Assembly: GCF_031846245.1 (NCBI RefSeq) | Contig: NZ_JAVRIC010000008.1 | Location: 62,001 to 126,000 of the forward strand | Origin: Banduia mediterranea | Lineage (GTDB): Bacteria; Pseudomonadota; Gammaproteobacteria; Nevskiales; Nevskiaceae | Direction: 5' to 3' | Length of the DNA: 64,000 nucleotides | Part shown: one piece after another, positions 41,209 to 49,689 of the stretch | How the letters are laid out: each line of letters opens with the position of its first letter | Position numbering within the stretch: the stretch's first letter is position 1 | Notes under the pieces: model-generated | Databases searched by the model: none | What the model saw: only the letters and a program-made list of their open reading frames with translations | What the model was told of the DNA's origin: nothing | Translations under genes and position numbers: made by a program

Positions 41209-41502
41209 TCAGCCACGCACCAGGTAAAGCCGCAGACCGGCCAGCAGCAGGCAGCTCACACAGGCGGTTGCCGACAGCACCCAGCGCAGCACGCGGTGAC
41301 GCGGCACGAAGCCGACCCCGCGCACGATGCCGGCAGCCATCGCCCATCCGGCCAGCGTCACCGCGAGGTGATCGGCGCGGCCACTGCCGTCGATCAGCAC
41401 CTTCGGATAGGCCGTGATGCCGAACATCAGACACAAGCCGATCAGCAACGGCAGCCAGGCCAGACCGGTTTGTGACGGAGCCTCGTTCACGTCGAGGTTC
41501 AT
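41209..41502 (-). CDS. ybgE: YbgE-like cytochrome bd operon membrane protein
   Basis: 97 residues with three hydrophobic helices (about 14-32, 44-62, 72-90). The middle segment LAGWAMAAGIVRGVGFVPRHRVLRW matches the WxxxAGxIHGVGFRP pattern of YbgE, the small protein encoded behind cydX in many cyd operons; its role is unclear. ATG 41502 overlaps the cydX stop (ATGA); the longer upstream frame is the shadow of cydX and cydB. Inner membrane. Confidence 0.8.
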   Translation of the reverse strand: MNLDVNEAPSQTGLAWLPLLIGLCLMFGITAYPKVLIDGSGRADHLAVTLAGWAMAAGIVRGVGFVPRHRVLRWVLSATACVSCLLLAGLRLYLVRG

Positions 41503-41621
41503 GCGTCGGGCGGGGGCCGGTCGGCTTCGCTGCGAGCCTCCTCGTTTTCGCCCCACATGGCGTTGAGGATCGCCAGCAAAACGGCAAAACCGACGCCTAA
41601 AACCCAGGTCAGATACCACAT
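41499..41621 (-). CDS. cydX: Cytochrome bd oxidase small subunit CydX
   Basis: A 40-residue single-helix protein starting MWYLTWVLGVGFAVLLAIL and ending in an acidic, Pro-rich tail. The MWYxxWxLG start is the CydX signature; CydX stabilises the hemes of the CydAB dimer. AGGAG sits 7 nt before ATG 41621. It lies 10 bp after cydB and overlaps ybgE by 4 bp, exactly the E. coli cydABX-ybgE arrangement. Confidence 0.88.
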   Translation of the reverse strand: MWYLTWVLGVGFAVLLAILNAMWGENEEARSEADRPPPDA

Positions 41622-41631
41622 GAGCATGCTC

Positions 41632-42771
41632 CTAGTAAGCGCTGTGCTGGTTGCGTTCGATGTGATCGGTGTCGACCTTGCCGCGCATCACGCGATAGGC
41701 CCACGAGGTATAGATGATGATCAGCGGCATGAAAATCAGCACGCAATAGAACATGATCGATAGCGATAGACGTGTTGCCGTGCTGTCCCAGACGGTCAGG
41801 CCGTGGCCCGGCTGCGACGACGAGGGCATCACGAACGGGAACATCGACACGCCGGCGGTGCCGATGACGCCGGCGAGCATCAGTGCCGAGGCGACGAAAG
41901 CGCTGCCGGTACGGCCGATACGCAGCAACACCAGGGCGGCGATCGCACCGAGATAGGCCGCGACGGGAACCAGTATGGTCAGCGGCTGCGCCTGATAATT
42001 GGCCAGCCACAGGCCGGCGGCATGCTCCACGCTCTTGCTGGTGGGGCTGATCGCCGCATTGCCGTCGATCGCCGAGACGATGCGGTAGCCATCGATACCG
42101 AAGGCCAGCCACAGGCCGGCGGCGCTGAACGCCAGGAGCAGCAACAGCCCGGCCCCGTAGCCGACGCGTTGCGCGCGTTCGGCAATCACGCCGTCGGTAC
42201 GGTGCGTCAGGTAGACCGCGCCGTGGGTCACGATCATTGCAGTCGAAACCACCCCACAGAGCAGGGCGAAGGGATTCAGCAACTGCCAGAAGCTGCCGGT
42301 GTAGTACGAGACCATGTTGTCGTCGAAATGGAACGGCACGCCCAGCAGCAGGTTGCCGAAGGCGACGCCGAAGATCAGCGGCGGCACGCTGGCGCCGACG
42401 AACAGGCCCCAGTCCCAGGTGCTGCGCCAGCGCGGATCGTGGATCTTGCTGCGGTAGTCGAAGCCGACCGGGCGCAGAAACAAGGCCCAGAGCACTGCCA
42501 GCATGGCCCAGTAGAAGCCCGAGAAGGCCGTGGCATAGACCACCGGCCAGGCCGCGAAGATCGCGCCGCCGCCGGTGATGAACCAGACCTGGTTGCCGTC
42601 CCAGTGCGGACCGACGGTATTGATGACCACTCGGCGTTCGACATCATTGCGGGCCACGAACGGCAACAGGCTACCGACGCCCATATCGTGGCCATCCATG
42701 ACGGCGAATCCGATCAGCAGCACACCGATCAGCAGCCACCAGATCAGTTTCAGGGTTTCATAGTCGAGCAT
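41632..42771 (-). CDS. cydB: Cytochrome bd ubiquinol oxidase subunit II
   Basis: 379 residues, about eight to nine transmembrane helices. The N-terminus YETLKLIWWLLIGVLLIGFAVMDGHDMGVG and GPHWDGNQVWFI are diagnostic. CydB supports CydA in the quinol oxidase and contributes the proton/oxygen route. It follows cydA by 12 bp and ends 10 bp before cydX. Confidence 0.96.
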   Translation of the reverse strand: MLDYETLKLIWWLLIGVLLIGFAVMDGHDMGVGSLLPFVARNDVERRVVINTVGPHWDGNQVWFITGGGAIFAAWPVVYATAFSGFYWAMLAVLWALFLRPVGFDYRSKIHDPRWRSTWDWGLFVGASVPPLIFGVAFGNLLLGVPFHFDDNMVSYYTGSFWQLLNPFALLCGVVSTAMIVTHGAVYLTHRTDGVIAERAQRVGYGAGLLLLLAFSAAGLWLAFGIDGYRIVSAIDGNAAISPTSKSVEHAAGLWLANYQAQPLTILVPVAAYLGAIAALVLLRIGRTGSAFVASALMLAGVIGTAGVSMFPFVMPSSSQPGHGLTVWDSTATRLSLSIMFYCVLIFMPLIIIYTSWAYRVMRGKVDTDHIERNQHSAY

Positions 42772-42783
42772 GACGATGCCTTC

Positions 42784-44343
42784 TCAGTGGTGCTGCGGTT
42801 CGGACTGGTAGCGGCCGGTGCCGAGGCTGCCCGGTCCCTGGCGCGCGAAGCGGATCATCAGATACATCTCGACGATCAGCAGGATGGTGTAGAAACCGAC
42901 GAAGCCGGCCAGGGAGCCGTAGAGGCTGCCGACGCTCAGCGTCGACACCGACAGATGGGTTGGCAGCACGCCGTAGATGGTCCACGGTTGGCGACCGTAT
43001 TCGGCGACGAACCAGCCGAGTTCGCAGGCGATCCACGGCAAGGGCAGCGACCATAGGGCCCATTTCATCAACCAGCGCTTGCGGTGGTCGTAGGGCTTGA
43101 GCGTGTGCCAGGCGGCGACCGTAAACAGCGCCAGCATCAGGAAGCCGATGCCGACCATCGCCCGGAATCCCCAGAACATCGGCGTGACCCGCGGAATCGT
43201 GTCGTTGACGGCGCGCTCGATCAGCTCCGGCGTCACCGTGTCCATGTCGATCACGTATTTGCGCAGCAGCAGACCGAAGCCGAGGTCCGCCTTGTGCTGC
43301 TCGAAGATCGCGCGCGCGGCGCTGTCGTTGCGGTCCGCGCGCAGCACAGCGAGGGCCTTGACCGCCTCGATGCCGGAAATGATGCGGATCCGGTTCTTGT
43401 CCTTGATTTCGAGGATGCCGGGGATTTCCCGGCTCACCGAACGCGTTCCGATCAGGCCCATGACCCAGGGGATCTCCAGCGCCCAGTCGTTCTTCTCCTC
43501 GGCCTGATTGGGCCAGGCGACGAGGTTGAAAGCTGCCGGCGCCGGCTCGGTTTCCCACATCGATTCGAGCACCGCCAGCTTGGTCTGCTGGGATTCGCCG
43601 ACGGTGTAGCCGGACTCGTCACCGAGCACGATCACCGAGCAGACCGAGGCCAGACCGAACGCAGCGGCAATGCGGAAGCTGCGCTTGGCGAATTCGACGT
43701 CGCGGCCGCGCAACAGATACCAAGCGGAAATCGACAGCACGAACATCGCGCCGGTGACGTAGCCGGCCGACACCGTATGGACGAACTTGGCCTGCGCGAC
43801 CGGATTGAACACCACCGCCCAGAAGTCGGTCAGCTCCATGCGCATCGTCTCGAAGTTGAACTCGGACCCGACCGGATTCTGCATCCAGCCGTTGGCGATC
43901 AGGATCCACAGCGCCGACAGGTTGGTGCCGATCGCCATCAGGATGGTCACCAGCAGGTGCTGATGCTTGGAGAGACGGTCCCAGGCGAAGAAGAACAAGC
44001 CGATGAAGGTGGATTCGAGGAAGAAGGCCATCAGGCCTTCGATCGCCAGCGGCGCCCCAAAGATATCGCCGACATAATGCGAGTAGTACGCCCAGTTGGT
44101 CCCGAACTGGAATTCGAGGGTAATGCCGGTGGTGACGCCGAGCGCGAAATTGATGCCGAACAGCTTGCCCCAGAAACGCGTCATGTCCTTGTAGACGAGC
44201 TTTCCGGTCATCACGTAGACGCTTTCCATGATCACCAGCAACCAGACCATGCCCAGCGTCAGCGGAACGAACAGAAAGTGGTAAAGCGCGGTTACGGCGA
44301 ATTGCAATCGCGACAGATCGACTAGGTGCTCACTGATCATCAC
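42784..44343 (-). CDS. cydA: Cytochrome bd ubiquinol oxidase subunit I
   Basis: 519 residues, the length of the long-Q-loop (E. coli-type) subfamily. Heme ligands appear as the His in [11 protein letters not shown] (His22), the His in [10 protein letters not shown] and the Met in FRAMVGIGF; the quinol-site motif EYGRQPW is near 440. It oxidises ubiquinol and reduces O2 to water without proton pumping, with high oxygen affinity. bd oxidases are known to tolerate sulfide and cyanide far better than heme-copper oxidases, which is relevant to the neighbouring sulfide genes. Overlaps cydP by 14 bp. Confidence 0.97.
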
Positions 44344-44533
44344 GCGGCTCTCTCATTGGAATCACTGGCGGCATCGGCGGAGGGCCGAGCACGGCGGAGG
44401 TGGCTTTGGCGTCGTCCACCGCCACGCGGTGATCGTCGACGAACAGCTGCCAGATCACCATGATCGCGATCAATTTAATGACGAGAATAATGATGATGTC
44501 GCGCAACAGGCGGCGATCGGTGAGTGGCAGCAT
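44330..44533 (-). CDS. cydP: CydP-like cytochrome oxidase small subunit
   Basis: 67 residues with one transmembrane helix (about 11-30, [20 protein letters not shown]) after LTDRRLLR and a Pro-rich C-terminal tail. The DRRLLRxIxIxLxxKLxxxxxxW pattern followed by a short FVDDHRV stretch matches the putative cytochrome oxidase small subunit CydP that precedes cydAB in many proteobacteria. It is the first gene of the cyd operon here and overlaps cydA by 14 bp. Confidence 0.78.
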
Positions 44534-44545
44534 ACGGGCCCCTAC

Positions 44546-44560
44546 GCGCTATTCATGCCA
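44546..44560 (-). promoter_or_regulatory. Possible sigma-54 promoter in front of cydP
   Basis: On the minus strand TGGCATGAATAGCGC keeps the invariant GG-N10-GC of sigma-54 promoters and resembles TGGCACG at -24. The weak point is position: transcription would begin almost at the cydP ATG (44533), so cydP would be leaderless or a different promoter is used. Its distance from the upstream repeats (84 bp) equals that seen at the persulfide dioxygenase operon (77 bp). Confidence 0.3.
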
Positions 44561-44642
44561 GCGAGCCTCACAATGAGGAGTCGTTTTAAATCAGTTACTT
44601 GAAATCGTGCCGGGCGAAAAACCGGCCCCACTGGCGCTGCCA

Positions 44643-44670
44643 TTGACAGTCCAAGGCAGTCGATTGGCAG
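44643..44670 (-). promoter_or_regulatory. Phased CTG(C/T)C repeats upstream of cydP (candidate FisR-type activator site)
   Basis: Read toward cydP the strand shows CTGCCAA (44670-44664), CTGCCTT (44659-44653) and CTGTCAA (44649-44643), spaced 11 and 10 bp, one helical turn each. The same motif with the same order, CTGCC copies first and CTGTCA last, stands upstream of the divergent persulfide dioxygenase operon. The whole 170-bp gap 44534-44703 contains no gene. Confidence 0.5.
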
Positions 44671-44703
44671 TGCCGGAGGAGACGATGCCGCCTTTGCCGC
44701 GTC

Positions 44704-46023
44704 TCATTCCAGGCCGAGTTCGCGCAGGCGCCGGTAGAGCGTGCGTTCGCTCATGCCCAAATGCTGGGCCAGTTCACTGCGCGTGCCGCGGAACACCGCC
44801 AGAGCATGGGCGAGACGTGCCTGTTCCCCCTGGCCGCGGCCAGGTCGAGCACTTGGCCGCGCCTGCGCTTCGCGCAGCTCCACCGACAAATGCTCGACAT
44901 GGATGCAGCCGTCGTCCGCAAACAGGCGCGCGCGCTCAAGAATATTGCGCAGCTCGCGGACATTGCCGGGATAGGCATAGAGGCTCAGACGCTTCATCGC
45001 CGCCGGATCGATGCTCGGCGCGGCGCTGCCGGCGATGCGTTGCAGCAGGCTGTCGATGAGCAAGGGCAGGTCTTCGCTACGTTCACGCAGGGCCGGCAGG
45101 CGAATCGGGAAAGCGCTGATGCGGTAGTAGAGATCCTGCCGGAAGCTGCCGGCGGCCACCATGTCCTTCAGCGGCTTGTGCGTCGCCGAAACCAGACGGA
45201 AATCGGCGCGCAGGGTTTCCAGGCCGCCGACACGACGGAATGTGCCCGATTCGATCAGGCGCAGCAGCTTGACCTGCATCGCCATGGGCACATCGCCGAT
45301 TTCGTCGAGAAACAGCGTGCCGCCATGCGCAGTTTCGGCGAGGCCGATCTTGCGCTGGGCGGCGCCGGTGAAGGCCCCCTTTTCGTGACCGAACAGCTCG
45401 CTTTCCAACAGCGCCTCGGTCAGTCCGGTGCAGTCGACCACCACCAGCGGCCCGCGCTTCCGCGCGCTGCTGGTATGCAGCGCGCGGGCGAACAATTCCT
45501 TGCCTGTCCCGGACTCGCCCTGCAGCAGTACCGGAATCTGCGCCGGCGCCGCTCGCTGCAACGCCGCCAGGGCCTCCTGGAAGGCCGGCGCACGACCGAC
45601 CAAGCCGTCCTGTTGCGGCTGCGCCGATGCTGCGACCACCGTACTCAGACGTTCGACATAGGCCACGACCCGGCCGTCGCCGTCGAGAATCGGCCGCAGC
45701 TCCACATCGACATGTTCTGGGCCGCGCGGTGTGTGATGGATGTGCAGGACGCGATCCGGCGCCCGGGTTTCATGGGCCTTACGCATCGGACAATGCTCAC
45801 CGGCCTGATCGCAGGGCAGCCCGTACTGATGAGAAACCCGGTAGCACTTGGCGCCGACATGCGGCGTGCCAGCGACGCCGAATTGCCGCTGGTAGGCGCC
45901 ATTGGCCGCGAGGATGTTGTACTCGGTGTCGAGCACGATGCTGGGTTGCACCTCGTGTTCGAGATACGAAATCAGGGCCTGGACCTGGGGCTCGGAAGCA
46001 GACGGGAACGGCGGTGAACTCAT
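44704..46023 (-). CDS. fisR: Sigma-54 activator with FisR-type three-cysteine sensor domain
   Basis: 439 residues. An N-terminal PAS-like domain (about 1-130) carries Cys60, Cys71 and Cys78 in the context KCYRVSH, LPCDQ and EHCPMRK; the spacing 11 and 7 equals that of the three sensing cysteines reported for FisR, which detects sulfane sulfur. The central AAA+ domain has GESGTGKE (Walker A), [13 protein letters not shown] (sigma-54 contact) and [10 protein letters not shown] (Walker B). A Fis-type HTH ends the chain ([21 protein letters not shown]). Start ATG 46023. Divergent from the persulfide dioxygenase operon and upstream of the cyd operon. Confidence 0.85.
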
Positions 46024-46070
46024 CGGGTACCCCGGGTGACGGACGCCGCCACCTAAACGCCTAGCGGCTT

Positions 46071-46107
46071 TCTGCCAGATTCTGCCATTTGCTGCCAATT
46101 CTGTCAG
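46071..46107 (+). promoter_or_regulatory. Four helically phased CTG(C/T)CA repeats between fisR and the sulfide operon
   Basis: CTGCCA at 46072, 46082 and 46092 and CTGTCA at 46101: tandem direct repeats with 10, 10 and 9 bp periods. They stand 77-112 bp before the sigma-54 promoter and about 50 bp before the fisR start, the expected place for the activator's own binding site. The 235-bp gap 46024-46259 otherwise holds an AT-rich stretch (46135-46170), a likely IHF-bendable segment, and no gene. Confidence 0.65.
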
Positions 46108-46181
46108 CCAGCCACCCATCACCGCGCCAGACCATGTTATTTAGTTATTGATTATTAAGATAATTTAATACAACAAAGGCT

Positions 46182-46197
46182 TGGCACGGCTCTTGGA
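46182..46197 (+). promoter_or_regulatory. Sigma-54 promoter of the persulfide dioxygenase operon
   Basis: TGGCACG-GCTC-TTGGA matches the -24/-12 consensus TGGCACG-N4-TTGCA except for G in place of C at the -12 pair. Transcription would begin near 46208, about 52 nt before the ATG. The gene next door is a sigma-54 activator, and phased repeats lie upstream at the usual enhancer distance. The non-consensus -12 base is the main doubt. Confidence 0.65.
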
Positions 46198-46259
46198 ATA
46201 GATCCGAACTGACAGTCAGTCCGCCCCGGACAGACAGCCCCACGCAAGGGAGCGAACCG

Positions 46260-47144
46260 ATGAACGCGGCGAACGAGATGCAGGTGGAAGCCTTCTTCGA
46301 CAAGGCGACGTGGACGATCAGCTATCTGGTCTTCGATCCGGCCAGCCGGCAATGCGCGCTGATCGACAGCGTGCTCGACTTCGATCCGAAGTCCGGCCGG
46401 ACCTCGACGCAGGCCGCCGAACGGCTGATTGCACGCGTGCGCGAACTCGGCGCCTCGGTGCAATGGCTGCTGGAGACGCATGTGCATGCCGACCACCTTT
46501 CGGCGGCCGGCTATCTCAAGGAACGGGTCGGCGGCCAACTGGCGATCGGCTGGCATATCACCACGGTGCAGGACGTCTTCGGCCGGCTGTTCAACGCCGG
46601 AGCGGGGTTCGCCCACGACGGAAGCCAGTTCGATGTGCTGCTCGACGACGGCCAAGAGTTCCTGATCGGTACGCTCAAGGCCAGAGCGCTGCATACGCCG
46701 GGACACACGCCCGCCTGCATGAGCTACGTCGTCGAGCAAGGTGAACAGTCCGTGGCATTTGTCGGCGATACCTTGTTCATGCCGGACTACGGCACGGCGC
46801 GCTGCGACTTTCCCGGTGGCGACGCCCGCACCCTGTATCGATCGATCAACAAAGTGCTGAGCCTGCCGCTACAGACACGCCTCTACATGTGCCACGACTA
46901 TCTGCCGAATGGCCGCGAGCTGAAGTACATGACCACGGTGGCCGAGCAGCGCCGCGACAACATCCACGTTCGCGATGGCATCAGCGAGGAAGCCTTCGTA
47001 AGCATGCGCCAGACGCGCGATGCGAGCCTGGAGATGCCGACGCTGATTCTGCCGTCGGTGCAGGTCAACATGCGCGCCGGCCACTTGCCGGAGCCCGAGA
47101 ACAACGGCGTCCGCTACTTGAAGATTCCGCTCAATGCACTCTGA
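46260..47144 (+). CDS. Persulfide dioxygenase of the Blh/SdoA type (metallo-beta-lactamase fold)
   Basis: 294 residues. HVHADHLSAAGYL supplies the HxHxDH-type iron ligands, GHTPAC the next His, and GDTLFMPDYGTARCDFPGGD the bridging Asp and the substrate-site region typical of ETHE1/Blh persulfide dioxygenases, which oxidise glutathione persulfide to sulfite. Blh proteins often carry an N-terminal DUF442 domain; here the enzyme is the bare MBL part and the DUF442 domain is on the next gene. AAGGGAG lies 8 nt before the ATG. First gene of the sulfide operon, 42 bp before the SQR fusion. Confidence 0.85.
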   Translation: MNAANEMQVEAFFDKATWTISYLVFDPASRQCALIDSVLDFDPKSGRTSTQAAERLIARVRELGASVQWLLETHVHADHLSAAGYLKERVGGQLAIGWHITTVQDVFGRLFNAGAGFAHDGSQFDVLLDDGQEFLIGTLKARALHTPGHTPACMSYVVEQGEQSVAFVGDTLFMPDYGTARCDFPGGDARTLYRSINKVLSLPLQTRLYMCHDYLPNGRELKYMTTVAEQRRDNIHVRDGISEEAFVSMRQTRDASLEMPTLILPSVQVNMRAGHLPEPENNGVRYLKIPLNAL

Positions 47145-47186: not shown

Positions 47187-48854
47187 ATGCAGCCTCGCAG
47201 TCTGACGCCCGAATTGTCGGTCGCCCCGCAGATCGGCATCGCCGACGTCGCCACGCTCGCAGCGCAGGGATTTCGCAGCATCATCTGCAACCGACCGGAC
47301 GGCGAAGCGGTCGATCAGCCCGCGCATGAGGAGATCGCTCGCGCCGCACAGGCTGTCGGCTTGAGCCTGCACTATCTGCCGATCGAGTCCGGCAGGGTTG
47401 ACGACGCCACGGCGCGACAGTTCGGAGCGCTGATGGATGAGCTGCCGAAACCGGCTTTCGCCTACTGCCGTACCGGCATGCGTTCGGCGACCCTGTGGGC
47501 GCTGTCGCAGGCCGACAGGCGGCCCCTGCCAGAGATTCTCGAACGGGCCAGGCAGGCCCAGTACGACCTGTCGGCGGTGGTGCGCCGCATCGCCAACGGC
47601 GGCCGTGCTCCGCTCGACCGGATCGACTTCCATCATCAGGTCGTCATCGTCGGCGGCGGCGCCGCAGGCATCGCGGCCGCGTCGAGCCTGCTTCGTCGCG
47701 ACCCCAAACTCGACGTCGCGATCGTCGATCCAGCCGAAGTCCACTACTACCAGCCCGGCTGGACTCTGGTCGGTGCCGGCGTGTTCGACGCCAAGTTCAC
47801 GGCTCGTACCATGGCTTCGCTGATTCCGCGAGGCGCGCACTGGATCAAGGCGGCGGTCGCCGCCTTCGAACCGCAGGCCAATGCCGTGATCCTCGACGGT
47901 TGTCGTGTGATCAGTTACGAGCAATTGATCGTTTGCCCAGGGCTCAAACTCGACTGGACCGGCATCGATGGTCTGGCGGAAACCCTGGGGCGCAACGGCG
48001 TAACCTCGAACTACCGCTACGATCTCGCTCCATACACTTGGGAACTGGTCCAGCGCTTGCGCAGCGGGCGTGCCCTGTTCACCCAGCCGCCGATGCCGAT
48101 CAAGTGCGCCGGCGCACCGCAAAAGGCGATGTACCTGTCCTGCGACCACTGGCAGCGCCAGGGCCGGCTGGCGCAGATCGAAACGCGCTTCTGCAACGCA
48201 GGCGCCGTGCTGTTCGGTGTCGCCGACTACGTGCCGGCCCTGATGGAATACGTGAAGAAATACGGCATCGATCTCGATTTCGGACAGACGCTGGTGGCGG
48301 TCGACGGCCCCGGACGACGCGCCAGCTTTGCCCGCACACGCACTGACGGCAGCCGCGAAATCATCGAGCAGGACTTTGACATGCTGCACGTGGTACCCCC
48401 TCAGACCGCGCCCGATTTCATCCGTGTCAGCCCGCTGGCCGATGCCTCCGGCTGGATCGATGTCGATCCGGGCACGCTGCAACATCGTCAGTACGTCAAT
48501 GTGCATGGCCTCGGCGATGCCGCCAATACCAGCAACGCCAAGACGGCGGCGGCGGCACGCAAACAGGCGCCGGTGGTGGCCCACAATGTCATCGTCGCCT
48601 TGCGCGGTCACGGCAAAATCGCACGCTATGACGGCTATGGCTCCTGCCCGCTGACGGTCGAACGCGGCAAGATCGTGCTGGCCGAGTTCACCTACGGCGG
48701 CAAGCTGGCGCCGAGCTTTCCGACCTGGCTGCTCGACGGGCGCAAGCCGACCCGCGCCGCTTGGTGGCTGAAGGAACGTATCCTGCCGCCCTTGTATTGG
48801 CAGGGCATGCTGAAAGGTCGCGAATGGATGGCTCAACCGGAGTTCAGCGCGTGA
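47187..48854 (+). CDS. DUF442 sulfurtransferase/phosphatase-like domain fused to sulfide:quinone oxidoreductase
   Basis: 555 residues in two parts. Residues 1-110 are the DUF442/BLH-phosphatase fold with the P-loop-like YCRTGMRS. Residues about 150-555 are an SQR of the mitochondrial (SQRDL, type II) class: FAD motif VVIVGGGAAGIAAA, the first redox cysteine in IKCAGAPQKAMYL, and the second in YDGYGSCPL, equivalent to the human pair Cys201/Cys379. It would oxidise sulfide, pass electrons to quinone, and hand the sulfane sulfur to an acceptor; the fused domain may be that acceptor. AGGAG precedes the ATG. Between the dioxygenase and the exporter. Confidence 0.85.
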   Translation: MQPRSLTPELSVAPQIGIADVATLAAQGFRSIICNRPDGEAVDQPAHEEIARAAQAVGLSLHYLPIESGRVDDATARQFGALMDELPKPAFAYCRTGMRSATLWALSQADRRPLPEILERARQAQYDLSAVVRRIANGGRAPLDRIDFHHQVVIVGGGAAGIAAASSLLRRDPKLDVAIVDPAEVHYYQPGWTLVGAGVFDAKFTARTMASLIPRGAHWIKAAVAAFEPQANAVILDGCRVISYEQLIVCPGLKLDWTGIDGLAETLGRNGVTSNYRYDLAPYTWELVQRLRSGRALFTQPPMPIKCAGAPQKAMYLSCDHWQRQGRLAQIETRFCNAGAVLFGVADYVPALMEYVKKYGIDLDFGQTLVAVDGPGRRASFARTRTDGSREIIEQDFDMLHVVPPQTAPDFIRVSPLADASGWIDVDPGTLQHRQYVNVHGLGDAANTSNAKTAAAARKQAPVVAHNVIVALRGHGKIARYDGYGSCPLTVERGKIVLAEFTYGGKLAPSFPTWLLDGRKPTRAAWWLKERILPPLYWQGMLKGREWMAQPEFSA

Positions 48855-48864
48855 ACGCAACACC

Positions 48865-49689
48865 ATGAGCGAGCCTGTGCTGCTCGGCGCCGGGCTCGGC
48901 GCCATCGTCGGCGCGATCCTGGCTCTGACCGGCGCCGGTGGCGGCATCCTCGCCATACCGCTGCTTGTATTCGGCCTCGGCCTGTCGATGACGCAGGCGG
49001 CGCCGGTCGGTCTGCTGGCGGTGGGGCTGGCGGCCGCCCTCGGCGCGGTGCTCGGCTTGCGCGAGGGCGTGGTCCGCTATCGTGCCGCGGGCTTCGTCGC
49101 CGGCATCGGCGTGCTGCTGGCGCCGCTCGGCCTGTGGCTTGCACACCGGGTGCCGAACGCGCCCTTGTCATTGGCATTCGCGGCCGTGCTGGTCTATGCC
49201 ATGCAGCGCATGTTCCGTCAGGCGCGTCGCGAACTGCGCCACGGCGTGCCGCCGTTACGCACCGAAGTGCTGCCCTGCGTGATCAATCCGCAACGCGGCC
49301 GTCTGCGCTGGACGCTGCCGTGCGCGCGGGCACTGGCCTTGACCGGCATGCTCGCCGGCCTGTTGTCGGGGCTGCTCGGCGTGGGTGGCGGCTTCGTCAT
49401 CGTGCCCGCCCTGACGCGCTACACCGATCTCGACATGAAGAGCATTGTCGCCACCTCGCTGGCGGTGATCGCCCTGGTCTCGGCCGGCAGTGTCGCCGCG
49501 GCAACGCTCACCGGCGCGATGTCCTGGACGCTGGCGGCGCCGTTTGCCGGCGGCGCGGTGCTGGGCCTGCTGCTCGGCCGGCAGTTTGCCGAGCGCCTGG
49601 CAGGGCCGCGCCTGCAGCAGGTGTTTGCGCTGGTCGGTTTGTTTGCGGCCGCGATGCTGGTGTTGCGCGCGCTGGGGCTGCCGCGCTGA
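48865..49689 (+). CDS. TauE/SafE-family sulfite/anion exporter
   Basis: 274 residues with about eight hydrophobic helices in two related halves; each half begins with a GxGGG-type loop (LTGAGGGILAIPLLVFGL and LLGVGGGFVIVPAL), the TauE/SafE signature. The family exports sulfite, sulfoacetate and similar anions. Lying 10 bp behind SQR and two genes behind the persulfide dioxygenase, it most likely exports the sulfite they make. Substrate is inferred from context. Confidence 0.85.
   Translation: MSEPVLLGAGLGAIVGAILALTGAGGGILAIPLLVFGLGLSMTQAAPVGLLAVGLAAALGAVLGLREGVVRYRAAGFVAGIGVLLAPLGLWLAHRVPNAPLSLAFAAVLVYAMQRMFRQARRELRHGVPPLRTEVLPCVINPQRGRLRWTLPCARALALTGMLAGLLSGLLGVGGGFVIVPALTRYTDLDMKSIVATSLAVIALVSAGSVAAATLTGAMSWTLAAPFAGGAVLGLLLGRQFAERLAGPRLQQVFALVGLFAAAMLVLRALGLPR

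Follow-up and report, generated by a model that had tools for sequence, protein, structure and literature searches.

Introduction

Why should the gene of a FisR-type regulator stand between the genes for sulfide removal and those of a cytochrome bd quinol oxidase? Could a single sensor, set between two operons, serve both of them? Cupriavidus is the genus of the first FisR work, and the FisR of Cupriavidus pinatubonensis JMP134 is reportedly the subject of Li et al. 2017.

In the passages of the literature covered here, the FisR of C. pinatubonensis JMP134 is tied to pdo-sqr-tauE (PMC9495516, PMC12170894), and in A. baumannii it is FisR that mediates the sulfide induction of pdo-sqr-tauE (PMC7315123). 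Cytochrome bd genes are induced by sulfide in several bacteria; cydAB of A. baumannii is sulfide-induced too, at distant locus numbers and, in the part of the report consulted, not tied to FisR (PMC7315123). The literature covered names no sensor that would connect sulfide directly with cyd, and among the papers listed in searches of open PubMed Central, judged by title, first part of the abstract or selected passages, none describes FisR control of cyd. Here we describe a locus that offers a candidate sensor, site and promoter. It lies in a stretch of 64,000 nucleotides, hereafter the window.

The fisR locus

On the minus strand of the window, fisR is followed by cydP, cydA, cydB and a ybgE-like gene, while pdo, a gene for a sulfurtransferase-SQR fusion and tauE run divergently on the plus strand (Table 1). 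The regulator gene therefore sits between pdo-sqr-tauE and cydPAB, with the persulfide dioxygenase and SQR neighbours expected of a FisR gene. A profile search of its product finds PAS_4, a sigma54 AAA+ domain (PF00158), in which the translation shows GAFTGA, and a Fis-type HTH (PF02954). Cys60, Cys71 and Cys78 are invariant among 12 aligned homologues. In the FisR of C. pinatubonensis, according to the part of the report consulted, Cys53 and Cys64 form a tetrasulfide link (PMC9495516), and the gap between these residues equals that between Cys60 and Cys71 here, 11 residues in each protein. Judged from its translation, the regulator of the window is a sigma54 activator of the FisR type, and the genome holds one copy of rpoN. 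As far as the passages covered describe them, the FisR proteins of C. pinatubonensis and A. baumannii are likewise sigma54 activators beside pdo-sqr-tauE with a predicted sigma54 promoter; unlike theirs, which are tied to pdo-sqr-tauE, the FisR of the window has an array that also faces cyd.

The cydPABX genes of Burkholderia cenocepacia, studied for anoxic survival (PMC9104464), have the same cydP-cydA-cydB order as the window in the part of that study covered. Its main text does not contain the words 'sulfide', 'sigma54' or 'RpoN', and the part covered reports cydP only in Burkholderiales, in contrast to the above-cut-off match to NF045611 in the window genome.

The sole sigma-70-like match in 44450-46320 lies at 46079-46107 on the minus strand (CTGACA-17-CAGAAT, 9/12, with TG preceding the second hexamer). 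It overlaps the sulfide-side array and is oriented toward fisR; FisR bound there may switch off its own gene, a putative autorepression.

Table 1. Genes and predicted regulatory features around fisR, in window coordinates
Feature	Position	Strand	Remarks
ybgE-like cyd operon protein gene	41209..41619	-	PF09600
cydB, cytochrome bd subunit II	41632..42771	-	
cydA, cytochrome bd subunit I	42784..44340	-	ATG 44340 chosen by eye; ORF list gives GTG 44343
cydP	44330..44533	-	NCBIfam NF045611, 49.5 bits (cut-off 29.6); stop located by eye
Predicted sigma54 -24/-12 element of cyd, TGGCATG-N4-GCGC	44546..44560	-	weak -12 half
IHF-like site CAAGTAACTGATT	44589..44601	-	9/9 positions of the consensus
Inverted copy closing the cyd-side array (TGGCAG on -; CTGCCA on +)	44637..44642	+	
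Tandem putative FisR enhancer (UAS) of cyd	44644..44670	-	CTGCCA 44670-44665, CTGCCT 44659-44654, CTGTCA 44649-44644
fisR-type sigma54 activator gene	44704..46023	-	profile matches; start codon picked by eye
Tandem putative FisR enhancer of the sulfide operon	46072..46106	+	CTGCCA x3 + CTGTCA
Sigma54-like element of the sulfide operon, TGGCACG-N4-TTGG	46182..46196	+	
pdo, persulfide dioxygenase-like	46260..47144	+	profile matches
Sulfurtransferase/phosphatase-like domain fused to sulfide:quinone reductase (SQR)	47187..48854	+	
tauE-type exporter gene	48865..49689	+	PF01925

Repeat arrays on both flanks of fisR

How particular to this locus is the repeat that faces cyd? An initial annotation, which had placed three copies pointing toward cydP, read them correctly: CTGCCAA, CTGCCTT and CTGTCAA start at 44670, 44659 and 44649 on the minus strand, with spacings of 11 and 10 bp. 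Inverted copies like the one that closes this array occur in relatives too. The annotation had also stressed that both arrays of the locus run in the same order, with CTGTCA nearest the gene. This is true of the window but fails as a rule, for just 10 of the 108 pdo-side promoters considered below have CTGTCA as their last copy, and the detail is incidental.

Across the whole 3.83 Mb genome, the pattern CTGYCW-N3-6-CTGYCW-N3-6-CTGYCW has three matches, one at cyd and two overlapping in the gap between fisR and pdo, against a single match for the reversed-pattern control; the triple repeat is confined to the two flanks of one gene, fisR. Among the 36 triple-repeat matches listed for 61 related genomes, 15 by our own count lie within 500 bp of fisR. 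Nine genomes of the family encode a FisR with 65% identity or more; the 15 matches come from eight of them, and the ninth (G015) has the copies with a wider gap. The remaining 21 matches, away from fisR, compare with 19 in the reversed control, seven of which stem from one genome. Random abundance of the array is ruled out by its genome-wide rarity and by the control-level number of matches away from fisR; a motif frequent at random, which had been named as the finding that would speak against the site, is not what the genome-wide scan and the 61 genomes reveal.

Nor does the genome give signs of a larger regulon when searched with a pair pattern, which has seven matches, three of them at the pdo side, versus 16 for the reversed control and thus no excess; this pattern is blind to the cyd side because the middle copy there is CTGCCT. 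The CTGYCA array provides a simple signature for locating other FisR targets. In one relative, a further CTGCCA array is found about 2.4 kb from fisR (G005:C3:128607-128635).

FisR loci of relatives

Is the sulfide flank of fisR built alike in other bacteria? Of 391 FisR relatives from named genomes, we kept the best 80, which belong chiefly to Pseudomonas, followed by Burkholderiales, Solimonas and others. In all 80 loci pdo is divergent from fisR, and at least two tandem copies at 9-12 bp stand on the pdo side in 79. The sample was widened with 15 of 58 listed matches (E <=4e-56), of which 14 were fetched, G062 being the same as L111, and 43 weaker ones were left aside; a total of 139 loci fell to 134 after removal of identical stretches. 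Two broader collections were each drawn evenly from a larger group: 399 genomes from the order of G061, with candidates scored in part in many, gave a match in two, G061 included, and 369 genomes of the class, with candidates scored in part in many, gave a match in the genome of origin only.

In the larger set, 108 of the 113 loci with divergent pdo have at least two copies at 9-13 bp. All 108 reach a sigma54 score of at least 12 (maximum 14.2) in the next 140 nt, a number that drops to 6.2 +/- 2.4 of 108 in dinucleotide shuffles; a looser threshold of 9.5 says little, since shuffles also pass it often (86.9 of 108). Array and promoter are a median of 96 nt apart. Between the two we scored an IHF-like consensus, YAANNNNYTGATW, at 8/9 or better, and found such sites in 61 of 108 cases versus 10.9 +/- 2.9 in shuffles.

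The textbook sigma54 -12 half is TTGC. On the pdo side its TT is present in at least 106 of the 108 promoters, and TTGN ends in A (73 promoters), C (21), T (9) or G (5), counts that come from sites chosen by a score which favours the consensus. In Cupriavidus metallidurans, arrays occupy both flanks of a fisR, one toward pdo and one toward tauE.

Genes downstream of fisR

What lies on the opposite flank? In 19 loci, a gene of cydA (15) or cioA type (4) comes after fisR, in the same orientation and no more than about 900 nt away. An array and a -24/-12 element precede cydAB or cioAB in 16 of these 19, 13 of them by rule and three (L176, L178 and L211) as judged by eye, their copies being partly inverted or unevenly spaced. 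The sigma54 score is at least 12 in all 13 that pass the rule, whereas shuffles of the 13 reach it in 0.6 +/- 0.7 cases. L175 is a less direct case, since cioA starts about 830 nt past fisR, the stretch between is unannotated and the promoter may serve another gene first. IHF-like sites occur on the cyd/cio side in 11 of 16 loci, with 1.7 +/- 1.1 in shuffles. Neither array nor promoter was found in three of the 19 loci, L034, L113 and L177, of which L113 and L177 are close kin on the FisR tree. In L034 (Pseudomonas sp. UMAB-08), where cydAB follows fisR without an array, there is a perfect FNR/ANR-type box, TTGATctggATCAA.

Thirteen of the 115 other loci have two copies downstream of fisR, and 10 of these 13 also have a promoter score of at least 12. 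The comparison of 13/19 with 10/115 yields a Fisher p of 5e-8, for related rows and with a threshold of 12 that was fixed after the scores had been seen, the shuffle control being run later. By eye and tblastn, the genes downstream of fisR are pdo-sqr in L188 and L190, and the stretches lead to tauE in L209 and L210. A CcoG-like gene with array and promoter, named by the same means, appears to be a FisR target in L168 and L170; so does a small membrane protein gene with array and promoter in L183, L200, L203 and L204, with an AhpD-like gene next in three of these loci. These 10 cases suggest that FisR targets share a slot on the downstream side of fisR, and cyd/cio is the commonest target found there.

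On a FisR tree of 81 rows (L015 omitted, and 22 rows below L161 drawn at random), adjacency to cyd changes 12 times, at least seven of them on well-supported branches. Six well-supported independent pairs differ in cyd/cio; the array agrees in 3.4 and opposes in 0.3 of them on average, too few for significance. One pair of loci is instructive in detail. L187 has cyd and arrays on both sides; L191, whose FisR is nearly the same, keeps the upstream array, has neither cyd nor a downstream array, and its pdo is rearranged. The proposal that the repeat is the regulator's own site, aimed at cyd, gains from this contrast, from the recurrence in 16 of 19 loci and from the IHF-like sites in 11 of 16.

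The predicted cyd promoter and the cydP start codon

Downstream of the array, a GG-N10-GC match had been pointed out, and TGGCATG-N4-GCGC indeed lies at 44560-44546, 83 nt past the last copy. A good -24 half is followed by a -12 half, GCGC, in which the TT is missing. The window is the only one of 12 bd-type promoters without a T before the G of the -12 half, and its score of 12.7 is the lowest among the 13 cyd/cio promoters that pass the rule. The cyd promoter may be weak here. Another GGCACG near ~44610 was rejected as the promoter: it is too near the array, has no -12 partner and occupies a position which, by eye, is unused in relatives.

The initial annotation had flagged as its weak point that such a promoter would start transcription at the cydP ATG itself. 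Could this be a property of the system rather than a flaw of the prediction? Among the 12 bd-type loci with a promoter, the cydP ATG is no more than 60 nt from it in nine, and in seven of these nine the ATG stands exactly 12 nt past the -12 doublet (the window, L095, L187, L194, L111, L167 and L178); the distance is 13 nt in L179 and 35 in L213. The supposed weakness is thus a conserved feature. On the pdo side, an ATG is found at offset 12 in one of 108 promoters. Comparing 7/9 with 1/108 gives a Fisher p of 6e-9, which becomes 8e-7 when the related L095, L187 and L194 count once, and both values ignore other kinship. The conserved trait is the length of the spacer and not its sequence, as the 12-nt spacers share just 1-5 of 12 bases, the related L095, L187 and L194 aside. 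Further in-frame starts occur in several of the nine loci, either before the promoter or within it; in L178 one comes immediately after the -12 doublet.

At sigma54 promoters, the first transcribed base lies about 12 nt beyond the -12 doublet. With the ATG at that same distance, the transcript would have its 5' end on the AUG or one or two bases from it, and a leaderless cydP is the best reading, one to which we give somewhat better than even chances. In several genomes, for example L095, L187 and L111, cydA has an AGGAG-like site. Leaderlessness would not be universal, because the promoters of L214, L043 and L047 lie far upstream; these three failed the core pattern, and leaders of about 180 nt are our own extrapolation.

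In S. meliloti, 171 leaderless mRNA start sites are given in the part of the study covered (PMC3616915). Those mRNAs and the predicted cydP mRNA share an AUG at or near the 5' end, which in the case of cydP is deduced from the spacing of a sigma54 promoter. Among the open PubMed Central papers listed, none describes, by title, first part of the abstract or selected passages, a conserved sigma54-driven leaderless gene. If our reading is true, a start codon held at the predicted transcription start in otherwise unlike promoters would make leaderless translation part of a Gram-negative stress circuit.

A model for FisR control of cydPAB

The recurrence of array and promoter in 16 of 19 loci, the enrichment of IHF-like sites and the genome-wide rarity of the array indicate that FisR most likely controls cydPAB through an enhancer-IHF-sigma54 arrangement. 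With considerable confidence we regard the region 44670-44534 as the predicted sigma54-dependent promoter of cydPAB under FisR control.

From this anatomy we infer the following course of binding, activation, transcription start and translation. Upon exposure to sulfide, sulfane sulfur would rise in the cell and the cysteines of FisR would form a polysulfide link. FisR would bind the CTGYCA array at about -111 to -137 from the cydP ATG, IHF would bend the DNA at about -56 to -68, and at the -24/-12 element sigma54 polymerase would be opened by the FisR ATPase. Transcripts would probably begin at the cydP AUG or one or two bases from it, with cydP translated without a leader and cydA from a ribosome site of its own. 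CydPAB would be produced together with pdo-sqr-tauE, and the electrons that SQR takes from sulfide would pass to oxygen by way of a quinol oxidase resistant to sulfide poisoning. If true, sulfide removal and sulfide-resistant respiration are switched on together.

The classical sigma54 systems with enhancer, IHF and promoter are those of NtrC, NifA and NorR. They share with the locus described here an upstream array, an IHF-like site and a -24/-12 element. Unlike them, FisR-type arrays repeat in direct orientation once per helical turn, the copies at the end being inverted, the -12 half is mostly TTGA (73 of 108), and the cyd start codon stands at the expected transcription start. More broadly, we lean, if only slightly, toward a history in which FisR regulons repeatedly took in a bd-type quinol oxidase and in which, in several lineages, the sigma54 promoter sets the cydP start codon at the RNA start, so that the small subunit CydP would be translated leaderless under sulfide stress and CydA via an ordinary ribosome site.

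Alternative explanations

Might cydPAB instead be transcribed mainly by read-through from fisR, or from an undetected oxygen-controlled promoter, with the array a decaying relic of a FisR promoter? We consider this unlikely. Between fisR and cydPAB, which are separated by a short gap, no terminator-like match was found on their shared strand, so that read-through from fisR may add transcription. Decay would suit the -12 half of the window, the poorest of its set, but the window has the array, the 9/9 IHF-like site, the -24 half and the 12-nt spacing before the ATG. L034, with its FNR-type box, and L113 and L177, without an array, demonstrate that cyd can stand beside fisR with no array at all; at cydP in the window, however, there is no sigma-70-like match on that strand, where a start driven only by sigma-70 had been proposed as the observation that would refute FisR control.

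It is very improbable that the repeats bind another regulator, or act as a terminator or some other element, and that the proximity of fisR is incidental. The copies are mostly direct repeats, whereas Fis-type activators usually bind dyads, and FisR binding at this site is a prediction; yet the arrays go with fisR across Pseudomonas, Burkholderiales and Nevskiaceae, matches elsewhere stay at control level, and a terminator role finds no terminator-like match on that strand. A chance likeness of short motifs is scarcely credible: if two mismatches are allowed, a loose sigma54 consensus turns up often in the window (159 matches, though fewer than in shuffles), but the array is rare genome-wide and recurs in relatives examined with shuffle controls.

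FisR-like activators beside other bd-type oxidases

Does the pairing extend beyond FisR proper? L013-L015 encode FisR-like activators, 48-49% identical, that are divergent from cioA-type genes, in L013 also with pdo. In Pseudoalteromonas xiamenensis (L223, 4165-5799) a FisR-like activator gene with the cysteine spacing of FisR is divergent from cydP-cydABX, and in P. piscicida (L224) another is divergent from cydAB. Both Pseudoalteromonas genes are located on large replicons, the N-terminal identity of their products is 39 and 36%, and neither pdo nor sqr was found in the 9.3 kb stretch around them. Inverted CTGTCA/TGACA-type repeats can be seen by eye in L014, L015 and L224. Together, L013-L015 and the Pseudoalteromonas cases suggest a recurrent pairing of FisR-like sensors with neighbouring bd-type oxidases. 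In L223, a single annotated cydB gene of 2.7 kb covers the cydA match.
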